Below are positions 4,600 through 23,475 of a DNA stretch of 61,560 bases, piece after piece. The notes below the pieces were generated by a model. That model made no database searches. It saw only the letters and a list, made by a program, of their open reading frames with translations, and was not told the origin of the DNA. Source of the DNA: Gracilibacillus sp. YIM 98692 (GTDB lineage: Bacteria; Bacillota; Bacilli; Bacillales; Amphibacillaceae); contig NZ_WIXM01000023.1 in assembly GCF_010993965.1 (NCBI RefSeq), positions 1-61,560 of the forward strand. Direction: 5' to 3'. The position numbers were made by a program, and so were the translations under genes. Each line of letters opens with the position of its first letter. Position 1 is the first letter of the stretch.

Positions 4600-4875
4600 T
4601 TCGTAATATCCAAAAAACGCTCACTGCGGGGTCTTCACACAGCTTCCGAAAGACCCCACAGGATGCACCTGCGTCTAGTAAAGCTTCGAAGTAGGCTTCC
4701 TCGGTGCAAGGGAACAAAGATGTTATTTCAAGTAGCCCCTGGCTGAGGTGCTGCCCCGGCAAAGAAGACACTGCGAAAGCGACCAAAGGAAGCTTGAGTA
4801 GATGTCGCACTTGTGCCCTTGGGTGAAAGCGAGTGTTTTCCGCAGCGGTGGTTTAGCACTCATACTTAACCGTAT
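4600..4875. repeat. R1 dispersed element copy
   Basis: Contains the R1 modules 'gcggggtcttc', 'aagcttcgaagtaggcttcctc', 'cccttgggtgaaagcgagtg' and the closing 'ccgcagcggtggtttagcac'. Its right end touches the stop of the deacetylase gene on the minus strand. Open frames inside it are repeat-derived and are not annotated. Confidence 0.75.
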
Positions 4876-5495
4876 ATATCATTTTGTAATAAGGTGAATT
4901 GATAGCCTTTCTCACGAATTTTTTTTATCATTTCTGGGAGTATATCAACTGTTTGTCTGAGTTCATGTAAAAGAATAATAGCTCCGTCTTCTAGATTGTC
5001 AATCACGTTATCTATAATCTGCTGTGGATCGCATTTCAGTTCCCAATCAATGGACGCGACCCTCCACATTACTGTTGTTAAGTTTAGCGCTTCAGCTGCT
5101 TGAATCGTTTCCTTATTGTACTGACCAAATGGAGGTCGAAAGAAGGTCACTTTTTGACCTGTAATTCTTTCAATTTTTGATACACTGTTAGACAGTTGTT
5201 TATATTGCTGTTCATATGTGAGCATCTGTAAATTAGGATGATTAATCGTATGAGTACCAATTATATGCCCTTCATCTAAAACCCTTTTCCATGGTCTTTT
5301 CTCATATAGAAGCCTGGTTTGCCAAAAGAATACAGCAGGCGCATTTTCTTGTTTTAATATATCTAATATTTCATTCAAAACACTGCTTGGTCCATCATCA
5401 AATGTTAAGACGACGGACTTTGGATGATTGGAACAAATACTTGTCATGACTTTTGAATCTGATGAGTCGTACACGACCCTTGATTGATCAACCAC
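4866..5495 (-). CDS. NodB-type polysaccharide deacetylase
   Basis: Carbohydrate esterase family 4 protein, predicted to remove N-acetyl groups from an amino sugar or glycan. All NodB motifs are present: 'TFDDGP' (catalytic Asp, metal Asp), 'GTHTINHP' (metal His pair), 'RPPFGQYN', a Trp-containing 'VMWRVASIDW' and 'ILLHE'. It is the last gene of the minus-strand operon, 38 bases after the PhnC-like gene. The start is uncertain. The GTG at 5495 has no ribosome site. A good AGAAGGG site serves a GTG at 5516, but that frame meets a TGA at 5496-5498, directly before the frame given here. No signal peptide or membrane segment is visible, unlike most cell-wall deacetylases. It could instead act on a small intracellular sugar; that is inference. 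Confidence 0.85.
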   Translation of the reverse strand: MVDQSRVVYDSSDSKVMTSICSNHPKSVVLTFDDGPSSVLNEILDILKQENAPAVFFWQTRLLYEKRPWKRVLDEGHIIGTHTINHPNLQMLTYEQQYKQLSNSVSKIERITGQKVTFFRPPFGQYNKETIQAAEALNLTTVMWRVASIDWELKCDPQQIIDNVIDNLEDGAIILLHELRQTVDILPEMIKKIREKGYQFTLLQNDIYG

Positions 5496-5533
5496 TCATG
5501 GACTTTTTATTCTCACTATTATCATCCCTTCTG

Positions 5534-6307
5534 TCAATTTATTTTAAGGTAATTTTGAAATTTGTTTACAGTGGATCCATAAGTTAAATGGAACTTGTCA
5601 TCATCGAATTTTTCAGGGATATCGTCAAAAACGACTTTTCCATCTTTTAATGCAATTAAGCGGGTGGCATAACGTTTTGCTAGTTCCACATCATGGACGT
5701 TTATAATCGTTAATAATTGAAGACGATGGTGCATTTCTTGAATTAATTGAAAGATATGATTGGAAATGCCAGGATCTAAGCTCGATACCGGTTCGTCCCC
5801 GAGAAATACAGCAGGTTGTTGTAATAAAGCTCTCGCAATACCAACACGCTGTTTTTGTCCGCCGCTTAATTGTTCTACCTTTCTATCTATTTGTGTCATT
5901 AAACCGACATCATCTATAATTTGTTTAGCACGTTTTATTTCATCATCTGTAAACCAACCAATTAAATTTTTAAAAGTAGAACGATATCCAAAGGTACCAG
6001 TCATGACATTTTGAATGACAGTTAGTCGAGGGATAAGGTTAAAGTGTTGAAAGATCATTCCCATTTTTCGTCGAACTTGTCGTAACTGCTCCTCGTTCAT
6101 TTTGGAAAGAGGCTGATCTTGCCAATACACTTCGCCATGTGTCGGCTTTTGCAGACCGTTTATACAGCGAATCAATGTAGACTTTCCCGCACCACTTTTT
6201 CCTAAAATACAGACGAATTCCCCGTTGTTGAACGAAAGATTGATATCAGACAATGCTTTTTCCTGACTGTTATCATATTGTACGGATACATTTTTTATAT
6301 TTAACAT
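5534..6307 (-). CDS. PhnC-like ABC transporter ATP-binding protein
   Basis: ATPase of a phosphonate-type oxyanion importer. Walker A 'GKSGAGKSTLIR', signature 'LSGGQKQRVGIARAL', Walker B 'VFLGDEP' and the H-loop 'INVHDVELAKRYA' are all present. Its 257 residues match PhnC. The ATG has AGGTGAAAAC upstream. It is third in the substrate-binding protein, permease, ATPase set at 8016-5534. The phosphonate label comes from the family only: no phn catabolic gene is nearby, while selD is upstream in the same operon, so selenite, selenate or another selenium compound is a reasonable alternative cargo. Confidence 0.93.
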   Translation of the reverse strand: MLNIKNVSVQYDNSQEKALSDINLSFNNGEFVCILGKSGAGKSTLIRCINGLQKPTHGEVYWQDQPLSKMNEEQLRQVRRKMGMIFQHFNLIPRLTVIQNVMTGTFGYRSTFKNLIGWFTDDEIKRAKQIIDDVGLMTQIDRKVEQLSGGQKQRVGIARALLQQPAVFLGDEPVSSLDPGISNHIFQLIQEMHHRLQLLTIINVHDVELAKRYATRLIALKDGKVVFDDIPEKFDDDKFHLTYGSTVNKFQNYLKIN

Positions 6308-6373
6308 GTTTTCACCTCATATATTACAGGGAAGTGTCATCTTGTAGGAAACAAAGAGAGTGAAGCTGTTTCG

Positions 6374-7129
6374 TTAAATTACTTTGTTTCGCACATAACT
6401 TCCGATTAAATCCACCATAATGACTAGGATCATGATCATTAAAACGTCCAGAGAAACGGAGGAGTATTGGAATGTTTTAAAATCATTGAATAACCGCTGA
6501 CCAATTCCCCCAGCCCCAATAAAACCAAGAATAAGTGAAGTGCGAATGGCCACTTCAAATCGGTAAAAATAATGGGATAAAACATTCGGCCAAATTTGCG
6601 GGAGAATACTAAATAGATAACCAAACCCTTTTTTTGCCCCTACTGCTTTCATGGCTTCTTGAGGACCAGGGTCCGATGCTTCAATTAATTCTGAAATTAG
6701 TTTACCCAATACCCCTACATTATGAAACATAATAGCCAAAACTGCAGGAAATGGCCCAAGGCTAAGTGCTGTAAGTAATATCAAACCAAATACAATCTCA
6801 GGTATAGAGCGTACAAAGCTTAAAGAAAAACGTGTAAAATGATATAGGTACTTGGATGGTGAAGTGTTCACCGCTGCCATGAAACTGATGGGAAGTGCAA
6901 ATATAAGCCCTAAAAAGCTCCCAAGGAAGGCTAGTGCTAATGTTTCTAAGCTATCATGTATCATGGCCGGTAATTTTGAAAAATCCATCGGAAACCACTG
7001 CGATAGAAAATCAATCATATTACGAAACTCTTTGAATTTGGATAAATCAAATTCCGTTAGCCGCATACTAAAAAAAACTAAGACTAAAAGCAAGATAACG
7101 GTAAAGATACTTCTATATTTAAACCACAA
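6374..7129 (-). CDS. PhnE-like ABC transporter permease
   Basis: Membrane subunit of the same importer, 251 residues. Hydrophobic segments are visible near 10-25, 70-95, 115-150, 195-215 and 225-245. The permease EAA loop appears in the region 'GPQEAMKAVGAKKGFGYLFS', and 'GFIGAGGIGQRL' is typical of PhnE proteins. The start appears to be TTG, 11 bases after the stop of the binding-protein gene, with a weak ribosome site, so it is probably translated by coupling. Substrate is unknown; see the PhnC-like and binding-protein entries. Confidence 0.92.
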   Translation of the reverse strand: MWFKYRSIFTVILLLVLVFFSMRLTEFDLSKFKEFRNMIDFLSQWFPMDFSKLPAMIHDSLETLALAFLGSFLGLIFALPISFMAAVNTSPSKYLYHFTRFSLSFVRSIPEIVFGLILLTALSLGPFPAVLAIMFHNVGVLGKLISELIEASDPGPQEAMKAVGAKKGFGYLFSILPQIWPNVLSHYFYRFEVAIRTSLILGFIGAGGIGQRLFNDFKTFQYSSVSLDVLMIMILVIMVDLIGSYVRNKVI

Positions 7130-7140
7130 AATTATCAGCT

Positions 7141-8016
7141 CTATTCTTTAATTATTCCTTGTTTGATGGCTGCATCTTTAATGCTTTGATAATCTTCATT
7201 ACTTGCTTTTGTAAACCCAGTTGCGCCAAAAGCATCTAAAATTTCTTTATCTTCAATCGAAAGAAAAATTTGTTGAAGCTGTTCTATTGTTTCTTCATCT
7301 GTGTTCTGGTGTACAGCCCATGGGTATTGAAATAATTTATCTGATTTCCAAATGATATTGATTTTCTCCCCATTAATCTTACCAGCTTGTACAAGTTGAT
7401 GATAAATTGCACTATCAATGGCCCCGGCATCCACTTGTTGATTTTGTACAGCTAGTGCTGTAGCATCATGAGACCCGGTATAACGAACAGAGTTAAAAGC
7501 ATGTTCGTCTTCAGAAACATAAAAACCGCGATCCTCTAATTCGATGCTTGGAATTAAGGATCCAGAAGTAGAGTTAGGATCACCAAATGCAAAGTCAACA
7601 TCATTTGAATTTTTAAGGAATTCATCTAATGAATTCCAAGGATTGTCGGAATGGGTAATAATATAAGAATAATAATAAGGTTCATCATTAATAAGTTGTG
7701 TTACGATGGCTTTTGCACCACTTTTATGTTGCGCTATTACATAGGTTAACGGCCCTAAAAACGCCATATCTATTTTTTCATAATTCATGGCTTCTACGAC
7801 ACCATTATAATCTGGATAAACTTCTACTGAAACTTCTCTGTTTAATCCTTCATTTAGAGTAGTCTGTAATTTATCCATTGCCCCTTCCATTTCTCCTTCT
7901 GTTTGTGCTGGGATCACTCCGATAGTGAAAGTGGGGGTATCATCATCACCACCACCACAAGCAGTAAGTACAAATAGAAACAATAATGTAATGGTAGAGA
8001 TCAATCCTTTTTTCAT
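7141..8016 (-). CDS. PhnD-like substrate-binding lipoprotein
   Basis: Extracytoplasmic binding protein of a phosphonate-type ABC importer, 291 residues. Residues 1-20 form a lipoprotein signal with lipobox 'LTAC'; Cys20 would be lipidated. The mature part has the PhnD fold markers 'FTIGVIPAQTEGEM', 'MAFLGPLTYV', 'FGDPNSTSGSLIPS' and 'DAGAIDSAIY'. The ATG has AGGTGAATGC upstream. A branch of this family is found beside selD in other bacteria and is annotated as a putative selenate-binding protein. Placement downstream of selD supports that reading, but ligand residues cannot be judged by eye. Confidence 0.92.
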   Translation of the reverse strand: MKKGLISTITLLFLFVLTACGGGDDDTPTFTIGVIPAQTEGEMEGAMDKLQTTLNEGLNREVSVEVYPDYNGVVEAMNYEKIDMAFLGPLTYVIAQHKSGAKAIVTQLINDEPYYYSYIITHSDNPWNSLDEFLKNSNDVDFAFGDPNSTSGSLIPSIELEDRGFYVSEDEHAFNSVRYTGSHDATALAVQNQQVDAGAIDSAIYHQLVQAGKINGEKINIIWKSDKLFQYPWAVHQNTDEETIEQLQQIFLSIEDKEILDAFGATGFTKASNEDYQSIKDAAIKQGIIKE

Positions 8017-8048
8017 ATTGCATTCACCTCATTTATATCTTTAAACAT

Positions 8049-8966
8049 TCATTTGTCATGTAAGTTTTCTTTATCCTGATTTAAAGTGAATTGTAACCCT
8101 CGCTCTAATGAATATTCAATGCCCCAGTTTAACGAATCATGTGCTTTTATATTAGTAAGATAGCTTTGCGATATATCCCCATCTCTTGCAGGGAGGTAGT
8201 TAGCGGTTAGGTTTTTATTTAATAAGCTATTTAATTTTTTTACTAATTCATTTAGAGTGGTAGGCTTACCGGTACTAATATTAATCGTTTGTCGATCACC
8301 ACGGTGGAGCGCGGCGATATTAGCATTTGCAACATCTTTAACAAAAATAAAATCTCTTGATTGATTGCCATCACCAAAAATTTCAGGCTGTTTATCATTG
8401 GACATCAAATCAATAAAGGTGGAAATAACATTTCCGTTTGCTTTAGAGCCTGGCCCATAGACATTAGCATACCTCAAAATAGTGTAATTTAGCTCATGAA
8501 GATCCGAAAATGCTTTGATATATAATTCGGCAGAATGCTTAGAGATACCGTAAAATGAAGTTGGATTCTGCGGATGATCTTCATCAATTCCAAGGTAAGC
8601 TGGTTCGCCATAAACGGCCGCGGATGATGCGTAAATCAGTTTTTTTACAGAGTGTTTATAGCAACAATCTAGTATGTTTATCGTTCCTGTTATATTGATT
8701 GTTGCATCGAGCTTAGGTTTTTCTATCGACTTTACGACATCCACCTGTGCAGCAAGGTGAATCACATAATCAGGTTTTTCTTTCTCAAATATATCATCAA
8801 GATTTTCTGTAATATCAGCATGGTAGTATCGAACATCCGAATGTAAAACATGACAATCTTCATAACATGTCACGTCAATGACGGCAACACGATAATTACG
8901 TTTTACTAACTCTTCTACTATATGTTGTCCAATAAAACCGCAACCGCCAGTCACTAGAACTTTCAT
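8049..8966 (-). CDS. NAD-dependent UDP-sugar epimerase/dehydratase
   Basis: Extended short-chain dehydrogenase resembling UDP-glucose or UDP-GlcNAc 4-epimerase. Residues 1-25 hold the NAD site 'TGGCGFIGQHI'. The catalytic Ser region 'YASSAAVYGEP' and the 'YGISKHSAE' Tyr-Lys pair are intact, followed by 'NVYGPG' and 'FIFVKDVANA'. Its 305 residues are at the short end of the family. The ATG has GGAAAGGATTT upstream. It lies between the selD/61-residue pair and the ABC importer on the same strand. Changing the donor sugar for the neighbouring glycosyltransferase is a plausible role, but this is inferred. Confidence 0.9.
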   Translation of the reverse strand: MKVLVTGGCGFIGQHIVEELVKRNYRVAVIDVTCYEDCHVLHSDVRYYHADITENLDDIFEKEKPDYVIHLAAQVDVVKSIEKPKLDATINITGTINILDCCYKHSVKKLIYASSAAVYGEPAYLGIDEDHPQNPTSFYGISKHSAELYIKAFSDLHELNYTILRYANVYGPGSKANGNVISTFIDLMSNDKQPEIFGDGNQSRDFIFVKDVANANIAALHRGDRQTINISTGKPTTLNELVKKLNSLLNKNLTANYLPARDGDISQSYLTNIKAHDSLNWGIEYSLERGLQFTLNQDKENLHDK

Positions 8967-8984
8967 TTTTATAAATCCTTTCCT

Positions 8985-9130
8985 ATCCCGAAATCCGAAG
9001 TGGAAAAACCAAAGGTAAAGAAAACTTGTCTATCCGCCAAGCCATATGGCGCAGTGCGGTAGCCTAGTTGCTCTTATCTATCTCCTTAAAATGGGCTACT
9101 ACGTCGAGAATTCTTCCTTGCTGACCATTT
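8985..9130 (-). repeat. R2 dispersed element, copy A
   Basis: About 120 bases match, with scattered changes, the segment at 46565-46690 (same strand sense as this minus strand). Shared stretches include 'aatggtcagcaaggaagaat', 'tcgacgtagtag', 'agcaacta' and 'gacaagttttcttta'. It covers the last 24 codons of the 61-residue protein and the gap to the epimerase. A more diverged relative lies near 38.9 kb. Confidence 0.7.
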
Positions 9131-9249
9131 ATACATTCTGATACGGTAAAGAAGGACCCAAGAGAGGGTCCTTCTTTTTCTTCATCCTCAGAGGGCTGGT
9201 TTACTTTTAAGATATACGTTGTACCTCTTATAGATTCGTTGATTAACAT
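9064..9249 (-). CDS. Small conserved-looking protein of unknown function
   Basis: 61 residues, family not recognised. The ATG follows the selD stop directly (TAAATG), so it is probably translated by coupling with selD. The sequence is hydrophilic, with an acidic middle 'PSEDEEKEGPS', and has no Cys, membrane segment or signal peptide. The last 24 codons fall inside repeat R2, and a near-copy of that part sits between mnaA and the protease gene at 46.6 kb. Either it is a genuine partner of selD whose relic survives at 46.6 kb, or its C-terminus is repeat-derived. The tight coupling to selD favours a real gene. Confidence 0.55.
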   Translation of the reverse strand: MLINESIRGTTYILKVNQPSEDEEKEGPSLGSFFTVSECINGQQGRILDVVAHFKEIDKSN

Positions 9250-10302
9250 TTAATGAACTGTAATTCGCCCTGGTTTTTCTTCCGTTATTTTACCAATAAT
9301 AGCTGAAGGTACATGTTTATCTACGAGAGTTTGTTGCAGTTGTTCAGCTTCTGCTTCAGGAACAGAAATTAAAAGTCCGCCAGAAGTGACTGCATCACAA
9401 AGGATCAATTGATCTAATTCACTAACATCATGACTATAATCAATACAATCAGATAACCATTGATGGTTTTTCTTTGTACCGCCTGGGATGATGTTTTGTT
9501 CTGCTAATTCTTTCGTTTTTGATAATAAAGGTACATTCTTATGATCGATGTTAATCCCAACATTACCACCTTCAGCAATTTCACGAGCATGTCCTAACAA
9601 TCCAAATCCTGTTACATCGGTACAGGCATGAACCGTGAAGTCTTCCATTGCTTCGGCAGCATCTTTATTTAATGTAGCCATAATGTTCATGACTTCATGT
9701 AAAGAGGTTTCGTCAAGTAAATCCTTTTTAATTGCAGTAGTTAATATACCAACACCAATTGGTTTCGTTAGTATAAGGCGGTCTCCAGGTTTAGCCCCAA
9801 CATTAGCTCGAATACGGTCTGGGTGGACTGTTCCAGTTACAGATAAACCAAATTTAGGTTCTTGATCATCAATGGAATGACCGCCGACGAGAGTCGCACC
9901 TGACTCTTTTACTTTATCAGATGAACCAGCTAAAATGTCAGCTAAAATACTCTTATCAAGTGTATGAACTGGATATCCTACAATGTTCATGACCGTAATC
10001 GGTTTGCCGCCCATTGCATACACATCGCTTAATGAATTGGCTGCTGCGATTTGTCCGAACATATAAGGGTCATCCACAATTGGTGTAAAGAAATCTAACG
10101 TTTGTACGAGTGCGATATCATCCGTGATTTTATACACACCAGCATCATCAGAAGTGTCTAGCCCAACTAACAAATTGGGATCTGGGACAGATTTAGGTAA
10201 GTGCCGCAGAACCTGCGACAGGTCTTCAGGACCAATTTTGCATCCTCAGCCACCTTTTGTCGACAAAGAAGTTAATTTAATGATTTCCTCTTTTTTAGAC
10301 AC
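9250..10302 (-). CDS. selD: Selenide, water dikinase SelD (selenoprotein)
   Basis: Makes selenophosphate from selenide and ATP, the selenium donor for Sec-tRNA, selenouridine and selenosugars. Translation starts at GTG (10302, with AAGGAGTGAG upstream) and reads through UGA at 10246-10248, codon 19, giving 'KGGUGCKIGPEDL'. The Sec sits where other SelD proteins have Cys or Sec, followed by the catalytic 'GCK' Lys. Full length is 350 residues, normal for SelD; treating UGA as stop leaves a headless frame starting near 10173. Other motifs are 'TLDFFTPIVDDPYMFGQIAAANSLSDVYAMG', shown here by its 'DVYAMGG' end, 'VGGHSI', and 'TDVTGFGLLGH'. A SECIS-like hairpin follows the UGA. It lies in an operon 44 bases after the glycosyltransferase gene. 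Confidence 0.97.
10203..10219 (-). promoter_or_regulatory. bSECIS-like hairpin of selD
   Basis: In the mRNA, 26 bases after the UGA, GTCGCAG pairs with CTGCGGC around a GTT loop. Spacing and a G opening the loop fit bacterial SECIS elements, which bind SelB. The same GTT loop is found in the SelW hairpin at 14867-14881. Confidence 0.8.
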
Positions 10303-10346
10303 AATAACTCACTCCTTTTTATATTGGAATGTCATCTCCATTCCTG

Positions 10347-11345
10347 TCATTGGTTTAGCGAATTTTTGTATACATTTAGCAAAAATTCAGCCTCGTGCTG
10401 ACTTGAATGGTTTTTAGCAATGTAATCTTTGGCGTTTTGTCCAATTTCCTGCCTTAATTCGATATTATTCATGATTTGTTCCGCATAATCAAGAAATTCG
10501 TTTTGGTTTGCATATAGGAATCCTGTTTTTTTGTGAGAAACAATGCTAGCATTTCCTTGATTATCAGCGACTAATACTGGAATGCCGTGTCCCATGGCTT
10601 CAAGAATGGCAGATGACTGCCCCTCTGAAATCGATGTGTTCAGTATACAGTCTGCTTGATAATAGGCTACTCCCATTTCTTCGTGAGGAACTTGACCGAT
10701 ATACTTGATCCATTCCTTATTTTTTTCTACTAGATCCAATACAACTTGTCCTTCTTCTTCCTCTAAAATCGGACCAACTAACCATAAGCGAATAGAATGA
10801 TCTTTTTTATACAGCTCACTTAGCATATTGATAGCAGAAGGAATGTTTTTTACTTTTCTAATTCCCGCTGGCAATACAAATAGAAAAGTATTGTCTTCTT
10901 TCGTTACATGAAAATTTTGTTGACTAAAATCACTGGTTCCTTGAGGAAGCATATAGAGTTTATGAGATATTCCTGGTAATTCTTTGGTAATGATTTGTTT
11001 CGCTTCTTGATTAAAAACGTGAATTGCTTCGGCCTCTTCTAAACATGTTAGAACATCTTGGCGCGTTTCATCATCATATAAATGATGATTAAGATCAGTC
11101 CCCGTGAGTGTAATGATATAGGAGACAGGCTTGTGTTCTAATTGTTGCATGAATCGGTAAAAGCGGTACGCATGAAAGCCGTGTACGACATCAGCATTAG
11201 GCAGGGAGGAATAGGTATTGTCATCCGTAATTGATATGATTTCTGTTTCCACCCCTAATTTTTCTAAACCATCTGCCATTCGTTGTACGGTTATCGTATT
11301 ACCCCTTGGTTGGTGGAAATTCGGAGTAGCTAAAACTATTTTCAC
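10347..11345 (-). CDS. Glycosyltransferase, candidate selenosugar synthase (SenB-like)
   Basis: 332-residue GT-B fold glycosyltransferase of the GT4 type, with 'PRGNTITVQRMADGL' near the N-terminus, 'ADVVHGFHAYRFYRF', 'ITLTGTDLNHHL', and the donor site region 'SEGQSSAILEAMGHGIPVLV'. 'LTGTDL' followed by a short His-rich stretch, and the GN-T opening, recall the glycosyltransferase family that includes SenB, which joins selenophosphate to a UDP-sugar in selenoneine synthesis. That resemblance is from memory. Immediate linkage to selD, whose product is SenB's substrate, supports it. It is the first gene of the minus-strand operon, starting at GTG with AAAGGATG upstream. An ordinary cell-surface glycosyltransferase is the alternative. 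Confidence 0.75.
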   Translation of the reverse strand: MKIVLATPNFHQPRGNTITVQRMADGLEKLGVETEIISITDDNTYSSLPNADVVHGFHAYRFYRFMQQLEHKPVSYIITLTGTDLNHHLYDDETRQDVLTCLEEAEAIHVFNQEAKQIITKELPGISHKLYMLPQGTSDFSQQNFHVTKEDNTFLFVLPAGIRKVKNIPSAINMLSELYKKDHSIRLWLVGPILEEEEGQVVLDLVEKNKEWIKYIGQVPHEEMGVAYYQADCILNTSISEGQSSAILEAMGHGIPVLVADNQGNASIVSHKKTGFLYANQNEFLDYAEQIMNNIELRQEIGQNAKDYIAKNHSSQHEAEFLLNVYKNSLNQ

Positions 11346-12548: not shown

Positions 12549-12645
12549 TGGCGGGATTGTGTGGGAATCGAACCCACCGGAGACGGCACGCGCCTCCCTC
12601 AGGGTTTTGAAGACCCAGGGGGACACCAGTCACCCATCCAAACCC
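12549..12645 (-). tRNA. selC: tRNA-Sec (anticodon UCA)
   Basis: 97 bases ending in an encoded CCA. The anticodon loop is CTTCAAA with anticodon TCA, which reads UGA. The T-arm is GTGGG TTCGATT CCCAC. A long variable arm (GGAGGC...GTCTCC) and an extended D-stem with TGGT loop fit selenocysteine tRNA, which carries serine converted to Sec by SelA. The acceptor stem pairs imperfectly: GGGTTTGG against ACAATCCC leaves T:T at the fourth pair and G:A at the eighth. It is divergent from selB. Absence of any other tRNA here and presence of selA, selB and selD make the identity secure. Confidence 0.93.
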
Positions 12646-12889: not shown

Positions 12890-14770
12890 ATGGAAGACAA
12901 ATATTATACGATTGGAATGGCAGGTCATATAGATCATGGGAAGACATCGTTAACGAAAGCTTTAACAAATATCGATACAGATAGATTAAAAGAAGAAAAA
13001 GAACGTAGTATTTCCATTGAGTTAGGGTACGCTCCTTTGTATACAAAAGACGGGTCACATGTTTCTATTGTTGATGTACCTGGTCATGAACGTTTTATTC
13101 GACAAATGATTGCTGGTGTTGCGGGAATCGATTTAGTCATCATTGTGATTGCAGCAGACGAGGGTGTCATGCCTCAGACAAAAGAACACCTGGAAATACT
13201 AGAATTTTTAGGTATTAAACACGCTATTATTGCGGTAACGAAAATAGACCAAGTAGATCAAGAGATGTTAGATTTCGTTCGATTAGATATAAATGAAACG
13301 TTAGAAAGTACCATTTTCAACGATGTCACCATGCACTATGTCGACAGTGTTTCTGGAAAAGGAATAGAGGATTTAAAGGAGTCGGTTTTTGAATATCTCC
13401 AAAGGATAGAAAATCGAGATCAATATGGTTCCTTTAGAATGCCGATTGACCAAGTTTTTACGGTGCAGGGGCAAGGGACCATTGCTCGAGGTACTGTTTA
13501 CGAGGGGATGGTCAAAAAGGCTAGTCCGTTAATGATTCTGCCTTCAGAAAAAAAAGTGCGTGCAAGAAATATACAAGTTCACAATCAAGATGAGGAGAGT
13601 GCTCAAGCTGGTCAGAGAACGGCGATAAACCTTAGCGGTGTGGATCGTGATGAGGTTCAGCGAGGGGATGTGTTAGTTGCATCTGATCACTTCCTCGTTA
13701 CCAACACGATCGATGTTTCGATTCAATTTGTCCACCATCTAATGTTTGCTGTAAAACAACGTATGCCGGTAAAAATTCACGTAGGTACCTCAGAAGTGAT
13801 GGGTAAAATAGTGTTCTTTGACCGTAATGTCGTTCAGGAAAAGGCAGGAGAAGTGCTTTGCCAACTTCGTTTAGATAAGGAGATTGTTGTGTGCCGAGGA
13901 GATCGTTTTATTTTAAGACGTCCAACTCCAGTAGAGACGATTGGTGGTGGATGGATTATTGATCCAAAGGGAGAGAAGTATCGTTTTGGAAATGAGACCG
14001 TTTCGATGCTCCAAAAAAAGAAGGAAGGAACGCCGGCCGATTTAGTCAAGGATGCTCTTTCAGCAAATGTACTTTTATCTCTGGATGAAATCGTCCAAGT
14101 TACTTCATTAGATATGCAAGAAGTGAAAGAGATAGTAGATGGCGATGATTTCGTCTCTTTAAAAAATGGCCAGTTCTCACTGAAAAAGCTGGAAGAAGAT
14201 GCGATGAATATGGTAATGGAACAAATGGAAAACTATCATCAGTCTTTTCCAATGCGTTTAGGGATCAATAAAGTGGAACTCACTCAATCCGTTAAAGCAA
14301 ATTATCCAAATGCTTTTATAGATCATACCATAGATATTTTAATGAAAAATGGTCAATTGGAAAAAGTGAATCCATATATTTCTAAAACAAACTTTCAACC
14401 CCATCTCCCCGAAAAATGGAAAAAACGAATGGAAGAGGTTATAACAAACCTTGAAAAAGATGGGTTATCCGTAAGGAATTGGGAAGAATATGTAAATAAC
14501 AGCCCTTTTACTAAGAGAGAGGCAAGTGAGTTAAAAGCATTTTTGCTACAGACAAACCAAGCTTACCGTTTAACAGAAGATTTAATGATACACAAAAGGT
14601 CATTTGATCATGCTGTGAAAAAGTTAAGAGAACAAACAGGTGATTCTTTTAACTTAAAGCAAGCGAAGGATGTTTGGAATGTATCGAGAAAATTTTTAAT
14701 ACCTCTATTGGAGTTGTTAGATTATTTGAAGATAACCAAAAGGGTCGACAACGAAAGACATTGGTTATAA
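12890..14770 (+). CDS. selB: Selenocysteine-specific elongation factor SelB
   Basis: GTPase that brings Sec-tRNA to UGA codons marked by a SECIS hairpin. The N-terminal EF-Tu-like GTPase domain shows G1 'GHIDHGKTSL', the switch region 'EERSISIELGYAPL', G3 'DVPGHERF' and G4 'TKID'. Domains II and III follow to about residue 360. Four winged-helix modules (about 365-626) recognise the SECIS. Its 626 residues match the bacterial family. The ATG has AAAGGAGGGG upstream. The SelW gene follows 41 bases later. Confidence 0.97.
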   Translation: MEDKYYTIGMAGHIDHGKTSLTKALTNIDTDRLKEEKERSISIELGYAPLYTKDGSHVSIVDVPGHERFIRQMIAGVAGIDLVIIVIAADEGVMPQTKEHLEILEFLGIKHAIIAVTKIDQVDQEMLDFVRLDINETLESTIFNDVTMHYVDSVSGKGIEDLKESVFEYLQRIENRDQYGSFRMPIDQVFTVQGQGTIARGTVYEGMVKKASPLMILPSEKKVRARNIQVHNQDEESAQAGQRTAINLSGVDRDEVQRGDVLVASDHFLVTNTIDVSIQFVHHLMFAVKQRMPVKIHVGTSEVMGKIVFFDRNVVQEKAGEVLCQLRLDKEIVVCRGDRFILRRPTPVETIGGGWIIDPKGEKYRFGNETVSMLQKKKEGTPADLVKDALSANVLLSLDEIVQVTSLDMQEVKEIVDGDDFVSLKNGQFSLKKLEEDAMNMVMEQMENYHQSFPMRLGINKVELTQSVKANYPNAFIDHTIDILMKNGQLEKVNPYISKTNFQPHLPEKWKKRMEEVITNLEKDGLSVRNWEEYVNNSPFTKREASELKAFLLQTNQAYRLTEDLMIHKRSFDHAVKKLREQTGDSFNLKQAKDVWNVSRKFLIPLLELLDYLKITKRVDNERHWL

Positions 14771-15184: not shown

Positions 15185-15858
15185 GAAAAATATAGCGAGG
15201 CTTCCATCAGCGGGGACTCTTACGGACGATTGTTCACCATGATAAAACTTCGTAATATCCATAAACTGCGACGTAAATTTGGGGAAGTTTTCCTTCACTT
15301 GTCTCGATAAGTGCTTAATCGTCGCTGCGGAAAAACACTCGCTTTCCGTGGGGAACGCTTCAGCCTCCTCGGAAGCAAAGGACGCTTCCTGTGGGGTCTT
15401 CAGACTGTTCCTTTCCCACAGGAGTCTCGTATTTTTCCGCAGCTTAGGTTGGTGCTCGTTTTGAGTGAGAAAATATCATCAAACCTATGGAAAAATGAAA
15501 AAAATCATAAATCGTACCACTTACTAGCGTAGACAACATACGGAGACTCCTGTGGGACAGCGAGAGCTGAAGATCCACTTGGTAAAGGGTTTTTCTTTAC
15601 CAAGTTAGCTGAAGCCGAGCCCGACGGCATAGAAAACACTACGAAAGCGATCTTTGCTTGAGTAGATGTTGCACTTGTGCCCTTGGGTGAAAGCGAAGTA
15701 TGTTGTCGGAGCGTATGATTACAGGCTTCAAAAATGAGGGAGATTTAAGCACTATATTAATATTTTACAGTGTCGCAGTTTGGTTCTACTACGACATTTA
15801 TGTATGAGAAAAATCATGAAGGATCGGGCTGGTTTTACCCGGTTTTTCTAATAAAAGG
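15185..15858. repeat. R1 dispersed element, near full-length copy
   Basis: About 90% alike by eye to the copy at 30475-30945 over some 400 bases. It carries the left module 'gctgcggaaaaacactcgct', the right module 'gaaagcgaagtatgttgtcg' and the closing 'attaatatttta'. Its AT-rich flank extends to the selA ribosome site and matches flanks at 150 and 59.8 kb. An open frame running from 15770 into selA is therefore repeat sequence, not selA coding sequence. The element separates selA from selB-selW. Confidence 0.8.
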
Positions 15859-15868
15859 GATGATGGAT

Positions 15869-17269
15869 TTGAAGCACTTACTACGTCAGTTGCCTCCAGT
15901 ACATGAATTCCAATCTAGTGATCGTTTCCTGGATTTAGTTAATAGATCAGGACTGATGGAAAGCCAGATCACAAAAATCATTCAGCAAGTGATTCATGAT
16001 TTAAGAAATCAGCTATTAGACGACATCAATCCTGCTAGTTTATCACGCATGAGTTTTGCTGATTATATTTGGATGAAAACAGAGGAGAACATACAAAGAT
16101 TTCAGCAAGATCGTGTTACTCGTGTCATTAATGGTACAGGAACCGTTCTACATACTAATCTAGGTCGAGCGCGCTTAAGTGAACGTGCTATAGAGCATGT
16201 GGCTAGTGTAGCTGCTAATTATTCCAACTTAGAGTACAACATGGATGAAGGAAAACGTGGATCGAGACATGATATTATAGAAGATTTATTGGTTGAGGTT
16301 ACTGAGGCTGAAGCTGCAATGGTCGTGAATAATAATGCTGCAGCAGTTTATATCATTCTTAGAGCTTTAGCAAAGGAAAAAGAAGTAATTGTTTCACGAG
16401 GCCAATTAATAGAAATAGGCGGCTCATTTCGAGTTTCTTCTATTATGGAGGAAAGTGGAGCAACCCTTGTCGAAGTAGGAACAACGAATAAAACCCATTT
16501 GTTTGATTATGAAAATGCCATTAATGAAGAAACCAAAATGATATTAAAAGTTCACACAAGTAATTTTAAAACGGTTGGATTTACAGAAACAGTTGGAACA
16601 GAAGAGCTTGTACAGCTTAAAAAACAACACGATGGAGTAGTGTTGTATGAAGATTTAGGAAGTGGATCTCTCTATGATTTTAGGAAAAATGGAGTAGGAA
16701 ATGAACCAGTTGTTCGAGAGGTAATCGAAGCAGGAGTAGATCTTGTTTCTTTTAGTGGGGATAAATTATTAGGCGGACCGCAAGCTGGCATAATAGTTGG
16801 AAAAAGGTCTTTCATTCAACAGTTAAAAAAGCACCAACTGGCAAGGGTATTACGGGTGGATAAAATGACGTTAGCAGGACTAGAAAAAACATTATTATCA
16901 TACTTGATGGGGAATGCTGCAGAAGAGTTGCCAACTGTTCGTGACATAGTAAAGCCTCTAAGTGATATAGAAATACAATCGAAACGTTTTATGAAAGAAC
17001 TACAGCCATATCAAAATATATATGACTTAGAAGTGAAAAAATCCACCTCGCAAATTGGCGGTGGAACAATGCCAGATGTTTATTTACCTACATACGTAGT
17101 GGCTATTTCACATAAAGATTATACTGCACAAGAATTAGCAGGGAAGATAAGAATGAATAAACCAGCTGTCATTGCTAGAATCAAGGATGAGAAAGTATTA
17201 ATCGATTTTAGAACAGTTACAAATGAAGAGATGGATGAGCTCATACCTGCATTTCTCAGATTGGCTTAA
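15869..17269 (+). CDS. selA: L-seryl-tRNA(Sec) selenium transferase
   Basis: PLP enzyme that converts Ser-tRNA(Sec) to Sec-tRNA(Sec) with selenophosphate. The N-terminal domain (about 1-65, 'KHLLRQLPPVHEF') recognises the tRNA. 'VINGTGTVLHTNLGRARL' and 'YSNLEYNMDEGKRGSRH' are SelA signatures. The PLP-binding Lys lies in 'SFSGDKLLGGPQAG'. The start is set at TTG 15869, nine bases after AAAAGGG, which gives the usual 466 residues; the in-frame ATG codons at 15860 and 15863 sit too close to that site, and everything further upstream is repeat R1. The UxxC thioredoxin gene follows. Confidence 0.96.
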   Translation: MKHLLRQLPPVHEFQSSDRFLDLVNRSGLMESQITKIIQQVIHDLRNQLLDDINPASLSRMSFADYIWMKTEENIQRFQQDRVTRVINGTGTVLHTNLGRARLSERAIEHVASVAANYSNLEYNMDEGKRGSRHDIIEDLLVEVTEAEAAMVVNNNAAAVYIILRALAKEKEVIVSRGQLIEIGGSFRVSSIMEESGATLVEVGTTNKTHLFDYENAINEETKMILKVHTSNFKTVGFTETVGTEELVQLKKQHDGVVLYEDLGSGSLYDFRKNGVGNEPVVREVIEAGVDLVSFSGDKLLGGPQAGIIVGKRSFIQQLKKHQLARVLRVDKMTLAGLEKTLLSYLMGNAAEELPTVRDIVKPLSDIEIQSKRFMKELQPYQNIYDLEVKKSTSQIGGGTMPDVYLPTYVVAISHKDYTAQELAGKIRMNKPAVIARIKDEKVLIDFRTVTNEEMDELIPAFLRLA

Positions 17270-17362: not shown

Positions 17363-18115
17363 ATGTTATTAGAACGAATGAATAATATACAATTAGAAGA
17401 TGTTGAAGGTCAAAAAGTTTCCATTCAAGACTTCCAGGGAAAAAACACATTAATATTCATGTGGGCTTCTTGGTGACGTTGTCGTGAACAACTGCCAGGT
17501 TGGCAGGAGATTTATGAACACTACAGAGACAGTAACTTTGAAATTCTTTCGGTTGCTGTGGATGGTCAAGGACCTGAAGTTGTCAAACCTTATATTAAAG
17601 GAACAACATTTGCAACCGTTGTTGATGTAGATAACAGATTGGTTAATATGTTTGGGTTTAAAATCGTACCTAATGGCATATTTATTGATGAAAATGGGGT
17701 TATCCGTTTAATTAAAGAAGGATTCCATGTTGAGAATTCTGATCATGTGAGGGCCATTGAACAATTGATTAACAAAGAAGTAGAAAAGGTTGAATTTGAT
17801 GATGGAGCACCAAAAAGTGATCAATCAGACTTACAGCTTCAACTTGCTCAGACTAAATTTAAACTTGGCATGGAATATGCAAAACAGAATAGAAAAGAAG
17901 AAGCATTGAAAGAATTGGATGATGCGATTTTGTTGGATCCTGAAAATTTTACGATCCGAAAACAAAGATGGTATATTCGATTTCCTGAAAAATTTGGTCG
18001 GGACATTGATTTTGAATGGCAGCAAAACCAATTGAAAAAGGAAAAAGAAGAAGAACAACAACAAAGAAATCAAGGATTAGTCTGTGGGCCAGATGGTTGT
18101 TTCATTCGAAAATAG
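17363..18115 (+). CDS. Thioredoxin-fold selenoprotein (UxxC) with C-terminal helical extension
   Basis: 250 residues when UGA at 17474-17476 (codon 38) is read as Sec; otherwise only a 37-codon stub and a headless frame remain. The motif is 'MWASWURCREQLPGW', a TlpA/ResA-type active site with Sec replacing the first Cys (UxxC). The thioredoxin fold continues to about 140, with the cis-Pro region 'IVPNGIFIDENG'. Residues about 160-205 look like a TPR hairpin ('GMEYAKQNRKEEALKELDDA'). A Lys/Glu/Gln coiled stretch follows, and the tail ends 'CGPDGC', a further Cys pair. There is no signal peptide, so it is cytoplasmic. The ATG has AAGGAGGGTG upstream. Function is presumably thiol-disulfide or peroxide reduction; substrate unknown. 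Confidence 0.93.
17492..17506 (+). promoter_or_regulatory. bSECIS-like hairpin of the UxxC gene
   Basis: CTGCC, loop AGGTT, GGCAG, starting 15 bases after the UGA. The loop contains GGT, as in the E. coli fdhF SECIS. Confidence 0.8.
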
Positions 18116-18527: not shown

Positions 18528-20414
18528 ATGTTAAAAAAGGAAGTAAAGGAGACTATAGATTATCTTGTTAAAAACCTAAAAGAAAAGCAGGCAGAGGATG
18601 GGGCTTGGAACTTTTGTTTTGAGGGCAGTCCGATGACAGATGCCTATATGATTATTTTATTAAGAACATTAAAGATTCCTGACGAAGTATTAATCAAAAG
18701 TTTGGCAAACCGTCTGTTATCTACCCAAAAAGAAAATGGAGTATGGAAACTTTATGGGGATGAGGAAGATGGCAACCTTTCTTCTACTGTAGAATCTTAC
18801 TATGCTCTCTTATATTCTGGTTATAAAGAAGTAGATGCCCCAATGATGATTAAAGCTAAGCAGTTTATAATGTCACATGGCGGCATAGAACAGGTCTCCT
18901 CACTTACGAAAGTGATGCTTATGATAACAGGTCAATATCCCTGGCCGAAGTATTTTCCTTTTCCAATAGAATTTTTGCTGTTGCCGCAATCCTTTATGGT
19001 TAATTTTTTTGATTTTGTCGGTTATGCAAGAGTGCATCTTGCCCCTATTTTAATTGTTTCGGATAAAAAATTTAAAATGTCGCATCAAAACACGCCTGAT
19101 TTATCATCTTTGTTTATTAAAAGACAGTTAGACGATGATGTTTTTAGGGAATTTAGGACAAATGAAGCGAAATCATTTTTATCCCATATTGTACAAAGTG
19201 TCAAAAGGCTTGTAGGACTTCCAAGTGAGCTGAATCAGATGGCAATTGAAAATGCCAAAAATTATATATTAAAAAGAATTGAACCTGATGGAACATTATA
19301 TAGTTATTTTAGTACGACTTTCCTCATGATTTTTGCTTTATTAGCATTGGGATATTCCAAAACAGATCCTTTAATCAAAAATGCCATACAAGGATTAAAG
19401 GGGCTAGTATGTTATCCTAATGAACACCCTCATATACAAGAATCAACTTCCACCGTTTGGGATACATCCCTTATTTCCTACGCATTACAAAATTCTGGTG
19501 AGAACATATTCTCTTCAGCGATACAAAAAGCGAATCAATATATATTACAAAGACAACACGTTCTATATGGAGACTGGTCTATTCAGAACCCTCATACTTT
19601 ACCTGGAGGATGGGGATTTTCCGATATTAATACTATGAATCCCGATGTGGATGATACAACAGCAGCACTAAGAGCGATCAAAAGGATGGCAATAGAGGTG
19701 CCAACTGTTAGGCAGTCTTGGTATAGAGGGATGGATTGGGTCTTATCGATGCAAAATAATGACGGTGGCTGGCCAGCCTTTGAAAGAAATACGGATCAAA
19801 AGATTTTAACAATGACTCCGATGGATGGTTCAAAATCAGCAAGTATTGATCCATCAACCGCAGACTTAACAGGCCGGACATTATAGTTTCTAGGTAAAGA
19901 TGCTGGTTTCAATATTGATCATCCACAAATAAAAAGTGGAGTAGATTGGTTGGAAAAAAACCAAGAAAAAGACGGTTCGTGGTATGGTCGGTGGGGTATT
20001 TCTTATATATATGGGACTTGGGCTGCGATCACAGGTATGAGAGCAGTAGGCGTAAAAAAAGATAACGACGCAATTCATCGAGGAGTGTCTTGGTTAGAAC
20101 ACATTCAAAATAAAGATGGCGGCTGGGGAGAGTCTTGTAAAAGTGATCAAGTGAAAGAGTATATTGCTTTAAGAGCTAGTACATTATCTCAGACAGCTTG
20201 GGCTGTTGATGCCTTAATGTCGGTCTATGATTCTCCCAATGAAATGATTGATAAAGGGATTCACTATATTATTCAACATATTAAGAAACGAGGTTGGACT
20301 TATACTTATCCTACCGGAGCAGCTTTACCTGGTAGTTTTTATATTTATTATCACAGTTATAATTATATTTGGCCATTAACCACTCTTAGTCATTATCAAA
20401 ACAAATATAAATGA
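18528..20414 (+). pseudogene. sqhC: Squalene-hopene/sporulenol cyclase with an amber codon
   Basis: Terpene cyclase of the SqhC type, which cyclises linear or monocyclic triterpenoids to hopanoid or sporulene-like lipids in the membrane or spore. The frame spans 628 codons, full family length, but TAG at 19884-19886 interrupts it after 'DPSTADLTGRTL'. The next codons 'FLG' continue the family motif in the same frame; the normal residue there is Glu, so one G-to-T change (GAG to TAG) explains it. The catalytic acid motif 'NPDVDDTTAA' (about residue 373) and several QW repeats ('DGAWNF', 'GGWPAF', 'GGWGES') are intact on both sides. The start ATG has AAGAAGGGATG upstream. A very recent mutation, suppression or a sequence error are all possible. 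Confidence 0.9.
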
Positions 20415-22509: not shown

Positions 22510-23475
22510 CTATATTACTTCTAAATAATGAACACTAAACCAATTTTTCTTATCGACAAATACTTCTATTGGTTTAAATCGACATGTTAAACAAAGCTTT
22601 TGAAAAGAATGAATCGAGTATTTATAGGAATTTTCAGTATGAATACTTTCATCCTTGGCAAATTTAATTTGTTGATCTAGTATTTGTATAGTTTGATTCA
22701 CTTTACTTATTAAATGCATTTCTATTCTGCTTCTTTCAGTGTTGTAAAAGGCATGATGAGAAAAGTTCTCCAAATGGAAGTCGGTGTGAAGTTCTCTATT
22801 TATTCGTGTTAATAAATTTTTATTAAATGCGGCTGTAATGCCTTGTTCATCGTTATAAGCTTTTTCAATAATATCTGTATCTTTTTTCAAGTCCACACCG
22901 ATTAGCAGCCCATCCCCTTTTTTAAGTATAGCGGATAGTTGTCTCAAAAATATGGCTGCTTCAAATGGCTCGAAGTTTCCAATGGTTGATCCAGGAAAAA
23001 AGATAACCTTTTTATGTCCACTTAATGTAGGTAACGAAAATAGTTTGGTATAATCTGCAACTATACCATAAATGTTTAATTTAGGATAAATATTTTGTAA
23101 CTGTTCAACCGTATTCCTTAGCATTGTTTTAGAAATATCAATAGGGATATAGCTGTTTAAGTTATTTTCTTCGAGTAATACCTTCGTTTTTGTACTACTT
23201 CCACTTCCTAATTCTATTAAATTAGCGTTTTCTCCGATTAACTTGGAAATAGCAACTTTAGAATCGTTTAAGATGTCCCATTCTGTTCGTGTCTGATAAT
23301 ACTCCTCTAATGTTGTAATTTTCTCAAATAACTCTGATCCTAATTCATCATATAAATATTTCGCGGCAAGTTTTTTTGGATTATTTGAAAGTCCATTCAT
23401 CACATCGGTAATAAAATGATCATTTTTAGGGGAATAGTCTGTAATTGTAGGACACTTTTGGTTTACCATCTTCAT
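22510..23475 (-). CDS. egtD: L-histidine N-alpha-methyltransferase EgtD
   Basis: SAM-dependent enzyme that trimethylates histidine to hercynine, the first step of ergothioneine (and selenoneine) synthesis. 'AAKYLYDELGSELFEKIT' and 'YYQTRTEWDIL' are family signatures. The SAM site is 'NLIELGSGSSTKTKVLL', followed by 'YIPIDIS' and 'FFPGSTIGNFEP'. Its 321 residues are full length. The ATG overlaps the egtB stop (ATGA) with GGAGGATG upstream, so the two genes are translated as a pair. Ergothioneine genes are uncommon in Bacillaceae, which suggests transfer; base composition gives no clear sign. Confidence 0.95.
   Translation of the reverse strand: MKMVNQKCPTITDYSPKNDHFITDVMNGLSNNPKKLAAKYLYDELGSELFEKITTLEEYYQTRTEWDILNDSKVAISKLIGENANLIELGSGSSTKTKVLLEENNLNSYIPIDISKTMLRNTVEQLQNIYPKLNIYGIVADYTKLFSLPTLSGHKKVIFFPGSTIGNFEPFEAAIFLRQLSAILKKGDGLLIGVDLKKDTDIIEKAYNDEQGITAAFNKNLLTRINRELHTDFHLENFSHHAFYNTERSRIEMHLISKVNQTIQILDQQIKFAKDESIHTENSYKYSIHSFQKLCLTCRFKPIEVFVDKKNWFSVHYLEVI

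Follow-up and report, generated by a model that had tools for sequence, protein, structure and literature searches.

To our knowledge, only a handful of enzymes have been found to incorporate selenium into small molecules. SelD-family proteins synthesize selenophosphate, and in the SenB-SenC (SelD) step of selenoneine synthesis a GT-B enzyme, SenB, adjoins such a selenophosphate synthetase. The pathway to ovoselenol, reportedly described by Kayrouz in 2024, likewise leads to a dedicated microbial selenometabolite. A different chemistry is represented by BshA/BshB and MshA/MshB, in which a family 4 glycosyltransferase (GT4) and a de-N-acetylase build the sugar half of a low-molecular-weight thiol. 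SenB prefers UDP-N-acetylglucosamine (UDP-GlcNAc; PMC10891094), and a 2026 review, whose main text holds no word beginning with deacetylase, glycosyltransferase, selenosugar or SenB, names selenoneine and ovoselenol as the two recent selenometabolites (PMC13188914). Here we describe a gene cluster in a 61,560-nucleotide stretch from Gracilibacillus sp. YIM 98692 (NCBI RefSeq assembly GCF_010993965.1, contig NZ_WIXM01000023.1, positions 1 to 61,560; hereafter “the window”), in which a minus-strand run (11345-4866) encodes a GT4, SelD, a GalE-like epimerase, PhnD/PhnE/PhnC-type importer subunits and a NodB-type de-N-acetylase. Open reading frames (ORFs) and family matches confirm these genes, which an initial annotation made from the letters of the window had listed, and sequence comparisons make it as good as certain that a conserved, selenium-linked module of GT4 and de-N-acetylase exists.

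Conservation of the cluster and its linkage to selD

Relatives of the GT4 were compared in 79 named loci (taken from the 80 top-ranking of 140 relatives, with a fetched stretch of up to 10 kb either side of GT4), in 159 genomes of the family (a GT4 carrier being called at E 1e-40) and in 398 genomes of the phylum; the named relatives of the window's cluster are Bacillaceae, e.g., Aquibacillus. Across the named loci, selD lies directly downstream of GT4 in 60 of 79 (match-to-match gap 22-132, median 63), and every GT4-adjacent SelD that was read carries an in-frame UGA. The family sample includes 20 genomes with GT4, all 20 with a UGA-containing selD within about 115 bases, against a background of 31 genomes with such a selD and 87 with any selD (Fisher p-values for the association with GT4 of 7e-18 and 3e-6, respectively, both inflated by related genomes). 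At the level of the phylum, where 34 of the 53 genomes with E 1e-25 matches were dropped because the match was incomplete or low-scoring (generic GT4s below about 111 bits), selD was present in 19 out of 19 strong GT4 carriers (one with its GT4 split in two) vs. 242 out of 379 other genomes (p-value 3e-4). Twenty named GT4 genomes, picked mostly because selD was not beside GT4 (14 lacked it in the fetched locus), all contained selD. Within the class of a clostridial genome, G219, 33 of 63 genomes have GT4 and 59 have selD, including all 33 GT4 genomes (p-value 0.046, a test of low power). A lack of co-occurrence with selD in other genomes, which the initial annotation had named as a point against its reading, is clearly contradicted, and its two broader proposals, a selenium link for the cluster and a glycosyltransferase product tailored by a cytosolic deacetylase, gain support from the UGA-selD adjacency, by the selenocysteine (Sec) of the deacetylase and by the SenB-like pocket residues described below.

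The Sec-containing deacetylase is similarly recurrent, being found in 66 of the 79 named GT4 loci. After thinning of near duplicates to 36 loci, the recurrent neighbours (at least five loci) comprised the deacetylase (31), ATP-binding cassette (ABC) ATPases of the importer and others (29), SelD (27), PhnE (26), PhnD (25), SelB and SelA (10 each), a redoxin (5) and two other clusters (5 each), with no BshC/MshC ligase among them, as judged by eye. When 11 GT4 genomes without an intact deacetylase at the fetched locus were tested, seven had a Sec deacetylase elsewhere and four did not (G001, G147, G148 and G569, no match at E 1e-40). In G566 it is next to PhnE-PhnC on a second contig, which evidently carries the remainder of the GT4 operon, and the linked gene of G147 and G148 is fragmented, with parts on either strand. 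The deacetylase genes of Virgibacillus ndiopensis and V. oceani (L075, L076) are likewise fragmented over the two strands, in the manner of a local inversion, with full-length GT4, selD and importer matches. A separate arrangement was seen in Alkalicoccus and Evansella (L144, L148, L129), where GT4 stands beside DUF2203 and flavin-reductase or DUF6671 genes, not selD, and the Sec deacetylase is elsewhere in the genome.

A de-N-acetylase with a probable N-terminal selenocysteine

Both a plain ORF caller and the initial annotation truncated the deacetylase at a UGA, the called start (5495) directly following this codon. The start must be moved to an upstream GTG with a Shine-Dalgarno site, from which the frame reads through the UGA to give the N-terminus M-R-I-K-S-P-U-V-V-D-Q-S-R-V-V-Y-D-S. 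The protein exceeds the gathering score of the NodB family PF01522 (123.4 vs. 23.1 bits), and residues D40 D41, H89 H93, RPP127-129, D157 and H184, which we take to play the usual parts of the NodB/CE4 catalytic motifs, are invariant in 67 sequences. We saw no signal peptide by eye, in agreement with the initial annotation.

A Pro-preceded UGA was present in all 66 deacetylase copies of the 79 named loci (the other 13 having no intact copy in the fetched stretch) and in 17 out of 17 intact copies of a first set, which includes the window and overlaps the 79 loci by genome. A search of 13 genomes added nine copies, all with UGA, of which two are the L125 and L131 genes already counted and seven are new. 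Because the Pro codon itself varies (CCA 49, CCT 17 and CCG 2 in 68 distinct stretches), the Pro-Sec dipeptide is kept at the protein level and not by DNA conservation alone. A Cys form at the exact Sec position was not found among the deacetylase copies examined.

Bacterial selenocysteine insertion sequences (SECIS) are hairpins just downstream of the UGA with a G in the loop, and the deacetylase gene has such a hairpin. Counting identical stretches once, its UGUA loop starts at +25, as counted from the U of the UGA, in 67 of 68 sequences, and with four more sequences (72) at +25 in 68 and at +22 in 4. Three loci (L084, L087 and L125) fell outside the 68 of both the Pro-codon and the hairpin count since the motif pattern did not match them; L125 re-entered the later hairpin count as L248, and L084 and L087, viewed separately, have the loop at +25 with pairs 1-5 formed, as read from the bases. 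Over 29 distinct hairpins, pairs 1-5 form in 26-29 and pair 6 in 23, with a few two-sided changes (GC to AU, GU to UA and CG to UA), and if one arm is shifted by 1 or 2 bases, nearly all sequences lose two or more of the first three pairs. As the hairpin also encodes RVVYDS and is itself highly conserved, the evidence for it lies in its constant place and these few compensations.

The alternative that gene callers adopt, an untranslated UGA with the start of the enzyme beyond it, is hardly credible and was rejected on the comparison of Shine-Dalgarno sites: GTG codons do follow the UGA, but the first possible start varies (1, 2, 7 or 8 codons after it), a Shine-Dalgarno-like site precedes it in only 13 of 66 genes vs. 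64 of 66 for the upstream start (control positions, 371 out of 2376), the Pro-UGA pair is invariant, and Alkalicoccus keeps a hairpin of different sequence (loop AGUU or AGGU) at the same place.

Three deacetylase relatives without UGA (G016, G117 and G118) lack the Pro-Sec pair, and their genomes have no GT4 match. The G118 protein (G118:C1:1348478-1349083, 51% identical, in a genome with a non-UGA selD) starts Met-Cys-Pro, with Cys one residue earlier, possibly a shifted Cys counterpart of the Pro-Sec tail, and no Cys lies near the Sec position in G016 or G117. At G016:C19:39229-41007 a UGA-selD is followed by a 60%-identical deacetylase without the Pro-Sec tail.

The AlphaFold2 (AF2) model of the deacetylase (mean predicted local distance difference test score, pLDDT, 89.6) has residues 1-9, including Sec modelled as Cys, disordered before a confident NodB domain, and no NCBIfam or Pfam model covering the Sec tail turned up. 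The enzyme resembles the CE4/NodB de-N-acetylases PdaA, PdaB and PgdA in fold and catalytic motifs and differs from them in being cytosolic (by eye), in its N-terminal Pro-Sec tail and in its operon context. The reading frame, the hairpin and their conservation leave us in little doubt that it is a genuine selenoprotein, apparently of a new family.

The glycosyltransferase and its acceptor pocket

Out of 26 families scored, the GT4 is best matched over its full length by NF038229, the “GPMC system family 4 glycosyltransferase”, with 288.4 bits under a cut-off of 400 (no paper on the GPMC system was found in the open-licence literature). It falls short of the SenB cut-off (TIGR04348, 80.5 vs. 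300 bits) and of that of BshA (TIGR03999, 56.7 vs. 273.7 bits), and reaches 34.9 bits against TuaC, so that the higher scores to teichoic acid or capsule glycosyltransferases that the initial annotation had considered were not found. A wall-glycan enzyme was rejected for these low family scores, and BshA because the genome has its own, true BshA (570.9 bits) on another contig.

The AF2 model of the GT4 (pLDDT 92.5) has BshA as its closest fold, with MshA near it. When an N-terminal profile was run against the whole PDB, four SenB sequences ranked first (E 0.02-0.25), and phmmer with the N-terminal 187 residues of the GT4 alone found no glycosyltransferase. The SenB residues compared come from PDB alignments only, because plasmids searched for a complete SenB gene yielded other glycosyltransferases (a capsule cluster and a Streptomyces locus in the two regions inspected). 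Eight residues of SenB, all but R26 listed for its selenophosphate and donor pocket, have identical counterparts (N20 as N16, T23 as T19, R26 as R22, T83 as T81, T85 as T83, D86 as D84, R155 as R163 and K158 as K166), each conserved in 50-52 of 52 GT4s. Since R155, K158, T85 and D86 also occur in BshA, only N20, T23 and T83 (and R26) discriminate, and the organism's own BshA has S, I, E and H at GT4 positions 16, 19, 22 and 81. The counterparts of SenB H58 and R61 are not invariant among the GT4s, and the SenB motif EGGAHV is replaced by EGQSSA, with E241 G242 Q243 invariant (motifs equated by the E...E spacing). As aligned, the acceptor half of the GT4 keeps the selenophosphate-pocket residues of SenB. 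The name “SenB-like” in the initial annotation is not supported by family score (80 bits vs. 288 for the GPMC family, both below cut-offs), the likeness lying in the pocket residues.

Pairing with de-N-acetylases of two folds

Beyond Bacilli, the GT4 is accompanied by other de-N-acetylases. In the class of G219 (clostridial, including L255-L275) 28 of 30 loci have a gene with the PIG-L motif directly before GT4, and the single PIG-L protein scanned, from locus L187 of another family, matches PF02585 and is BshB1-like (114 bits). NodB-like proteins were seen by eye downstream of GT4 in four loci of two other families; of those scanned, L185 matches PF01522 (27.5 bits) and L197 has no Pfam match. 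Neither a PIG-L nor a NodB-like partner was present at loci L186, L189 and L196. This repeated pairing with de-N-acetylases of two unrelated folds argues that the GT4 transfers an N-acetylhexosamine, and it is very likely, from the genes involved, that the two-enzyme step acts on such a sugar.

Locus L187 (2839-5972) has PIG-L, GT4, a familyless 121-residue protein and YedF (TIGR03527, 210 bits) in a row, YedF, a marker of selenium metabolism, being the second gene downstream of GT4. A motif search for YedF in 30 short loci of the G219 class found none.

Gene organization and neighbouring features

The features of the window are collected in Table 1. The initial annotation had counted eight genes in a single operon, among them a protein of 61 residues directly after selD. 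We count seven: the 61-residue ORF spans a hairpin, has no family match (NCBIfam, Pfam) and no tblastn relative (E 1e-5) among 19 fetched or 79 named related loci, and is thus not considered a gene. The terminator-like hairpin itself recurs: of 60 related loci with an adjacent selD, 52 have one in the gap that follows selD, and the cluster thus probably comprises two transcription units, GT4-selD and [epimerase]-PhnD-PhnE-PhnC-deacetylase, rather than one. That selD and the sugar genes are transcribed separately, which the initial annotation had named as a point against its reading, is partly likely from this hairpin, but the glycosyltransferase sits on selD's side. Across genera (L073-L141 and the window) the hairpin keeps much sequence (AAAGGACTC...GAGTCCTTT); perhaps over-conserved for a plain terminator, it may be an attenuator. 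Upstream of GT4 no conserved element was seen beyond a promoter-like stretch.

As with the deacetylase, the start of selD had been placed too far downstream (10173), and the corrected frame passes through an in-frame UGA; the protein scores 426 bits against the curated cut-off of 125 of TIGR00476. The cluster belongs to a selenocysteine island, with tRNA-Sec, selB, selA and a Sec redoxin just upstream, a setting on which the initial annotation was silent. tRNA-Sec is present in 18 of 19 related loci, and the ResA-like redoxin adjoining selA scores 125.7 bits against the WAxxUGC family, below its cut-off of 300. Further along (18528-20414, plus strand), a squalene-hopene-cyclase-like frame, named by eye and otherwise intact, is broken by an in-frame TAG near 19884.

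The epimerase, which the initial annotation had treated as a core part, is better regarded as accessory, since it occurs in 10 of the 20 GT4-carrying family genomes (window included) and in six of the 79 named loci. The importer does not qualify as a full PhnCDE phosphonate importer: PhnC and PhnE pass their family cut-offs, and PhnD fails (209 bits vs. 261 for the PhnD family). Against TIGR04553, a putative selenate substrate-binding protein family, the PhnD-like protein scores 172 bits (cut-off 250). All three subunits are found together in 60 of the 79 named loci, and the importer is not obligatory because it is absent beside seven GT4-deacetylase pairs (L108, L126, L131, L132, L134, L135 and L138).

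Table 1. Features of the cluster and of the adjoining selenocysteine island in the window.
Feature	Coordinates	Strand	Basis
GT4 glycosyltransferase, 332 residues, proposed selenosugar synthase	10347..11345	-	NF038229 288.4 bits, SenB TIGR04348 80.5
selD, selenophosphate synthetase, Sec form	9250..10302	-	GTG start 10302; TIGR00476 426 bits (UGA read as residue)
In-frame UGA (Sec) of selD, context GGUGCK	10246..10248	-	Reading frame
NodB/CE4-type de-N-acetylase selenoprotein, 216 residues, Sec at codon 7	4866..5516	-	GTG start 5516; PF01522 123.4 bits
In-frame UGA (Sec) of deacetylase, motif [STNC]-P-U	5496..5498	-	Conserved across copies
Bacterial SECIS hairpin GGGUCG-UGUA-CGACUC	5464..5479	-	Loop 25 nt from U of UGA
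Terminator hairpin after selD, perfect 12-bp stem	9148..9177	.	Conserved in position among relatives
61-residue ORF, judged not a gene	9064..9249	-	Directly after selD; spans hairpin, familyless
GalE-like NAD-dependent sugar-nucleotide epimerase, accessory	8049..8966	-	galE TIGR01179 190.6 bits (below 262.3); PF01370
PhnD-like substrate-binding lipoprotein, proposed selenium oxyanion importer	7141..8016	-	TIGR01098 200.7 (cut-off 112)
PhnE-like permease	6374..7129	-	TIGR01097 259.7 (cut-off 216.7)
PhnC-like ATPase	5534..6307	-	TIGR02315 301.3 (cut-off 266.1)
tRNA-Sec	12549..12645	-	ARAGORN; Rfam RF01852 64.2 bits
selB	12890..14770	+	TIGR00475 371 bits
selA	15770..17269	+	TIGR00474 561 bits
ResA-like redoxin selenoprotein (ASWUR), C-terminal extension	17363-18115	+	UGA 17474-17476; adjoins selA

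Discussion

It is tempting to read these genes as a pathway. A PhnCDE-type importer would bring a selenium oxyanion into the cell, and after its reduction SelD, itself a selenoprotein, would make selenophosphate. With UDP-GlcNAc as its most likely donor, the GT4 would then attach an N-acetylhexosamine (GlcNAc in that case) to selenophosphate in the fashion of SenB to give 1-seleno-GlcNAc, from which the NodB-type de-N-acetylase would strip the acetyl group, leaving 1-seleno-glucosamine, a small selenol. In some species the epimerase could supply UDP-N-acetylgalactosamine instead. The Sec tail might act as a swinging arm whose selenol holds the selenosugar, or as a gate through which the enzyme is made only when selenium suffices.

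The pocket residues and the gene order tip the balance in favour of selenophosphate as the acceptor of the GT4. That importer, SelD, GT4 and deacetylase form one selenium-metabolite pathway making seleno-glucosamine is a closer call, which we judge to lean just to the positive side. The fullest version of the proposal is more tentative, with prospects a little short of even: a further dedicated selenometabolite pathway beside those to selenoneine and ovoselenol, which would convert selenophosphate and UDP-GlcNAc to 1-seleno-glucosamine, with an obligate-selenoprotein deacetylase and its swinging N-terminal Sec arm in Bacilli and a GT4 plus PIG-L version in a Clostridia-like class of Bacillota.

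As proposed, the pathway parallels BshA/BshB and MshA/MshB, from which it differs in the low BshA score of its GT4, the presence of a separate BshA in the genome, the NodB-type Sec deacetylase and the link to SelD. It shares with the SenB-SenC step a GT-B enzyme adjoining selenophosphate synthetase and the pocket counterparts, and departs from it in family score, in EGQSSA for EGGAHV, in having no SenA, in its de-N-acetylase and importer partners and in the Sec form of its SelD. Read in this way, the system would recombine selenosugar and low-molecular-weight-thiol chemistry, with a probable new selenoprotein family added.

The strongest competitor, which we nonetheless consider unlikely, is that GT4 and deacetylase make a glucosamine conjugate of an acceptor without selenium (a precursor resembling that of bacillithiol or mycothiol, or some other glycoside) and that selenium takes part just through Sec, in the deacetylase and in SelD; the genes would then sit beside the Sec machinery because these two proteins need Sec. 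The closeness of the GT4 fold to BshA and MshA is in line with this, as are the BshB1-like score of the one clostridial-version PIG-L enzyme scanned and the linkage to selA, selB and tRNA-Sec, which fits a simple Sec island. However, it is the GT4 and not the deacetylase that adjoins selD, on selD's side of the hairpin; G001 retains GT4-selD without the deacetylase; N16, T19, R22 and T81 agree with SenB and not with BshA; and the genome already has its own BshA (571 bits).

Improbable, too, is salvage or detoxification, in which the importer would take up selenosugars or selenium oxyanions and the glycosyltransferase and deacetylase would store or recycle selenium as a selenosugar, with no working metabolite. 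The three importer subunits do travel together in most named loci, and PhnD is related to a putative selenate-binding family, but seven GT4-deacetylase pairs lack the importer beside them.

We give still less weight to a selenoneine pathway of SenB-like enzyme and SelD, with the EgtB and EgtD encoded 11 kb away (22510-24743, minus strand), which by score are genes of ergothioneine synthesis, as SenA and source of hercynine. The EgtB homologue reaches 335.6 bits against SenA, but this is below the cut-off of 420, whereas its EgtB score (561) is above that family's cut-off of 360, and the reading was rejected on the SenA score (SenA being scored in the window only); moreover, the fetched stretches of the 79 named loci hold no EgtB/EgtD match at E 1e-5, and the GT4 misses the SenB cut-off. 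Tailoring of cell-wall or teichoic glycans with selD nearby by accident is likewise very improbable, as the deacetylase does fall among PdaA/PdaB/PgdA-like CE4 enzymes but has no signal peptide by eye, the GT4 scores only 34.9 bits against TuaC, and selD adjacency is 20 out of 20 in the family.

In the open-licence literature we found no paper on a two-gene pathway of PIG-L and NF038229-type GT4, and in open-licence full texts none that brings together four of SelD, PIG-L, glycosyltransferase, selenophosphate and deacetylase. For a polysaccharide-deacetylase selenoprotein the sole match in those texts was on Aneurinibacillus enzymes, and a glycosyltransferase, Shel_25140, figures in a table of Slackia genes in the section on YedE of PMC5322559.

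As a selenoprotein the deacetylase would be unusual, being a hydrolase and not a redox enzyme, whose Sec lies in a disordered tail at the N-terminus and for which the copies examined include none with Cys at that position. The operon offers a compact candidate for a pathway in Gram-positive bacteria, one that is open to test and has a specific predicted product. If the proposal is true, 1-seleno-glucosamine would correspond, with selenium, to the sugar half of bacillithiol or mycothiol, and selenium would be both the substrate and the catalyst or gate of its own pathway.

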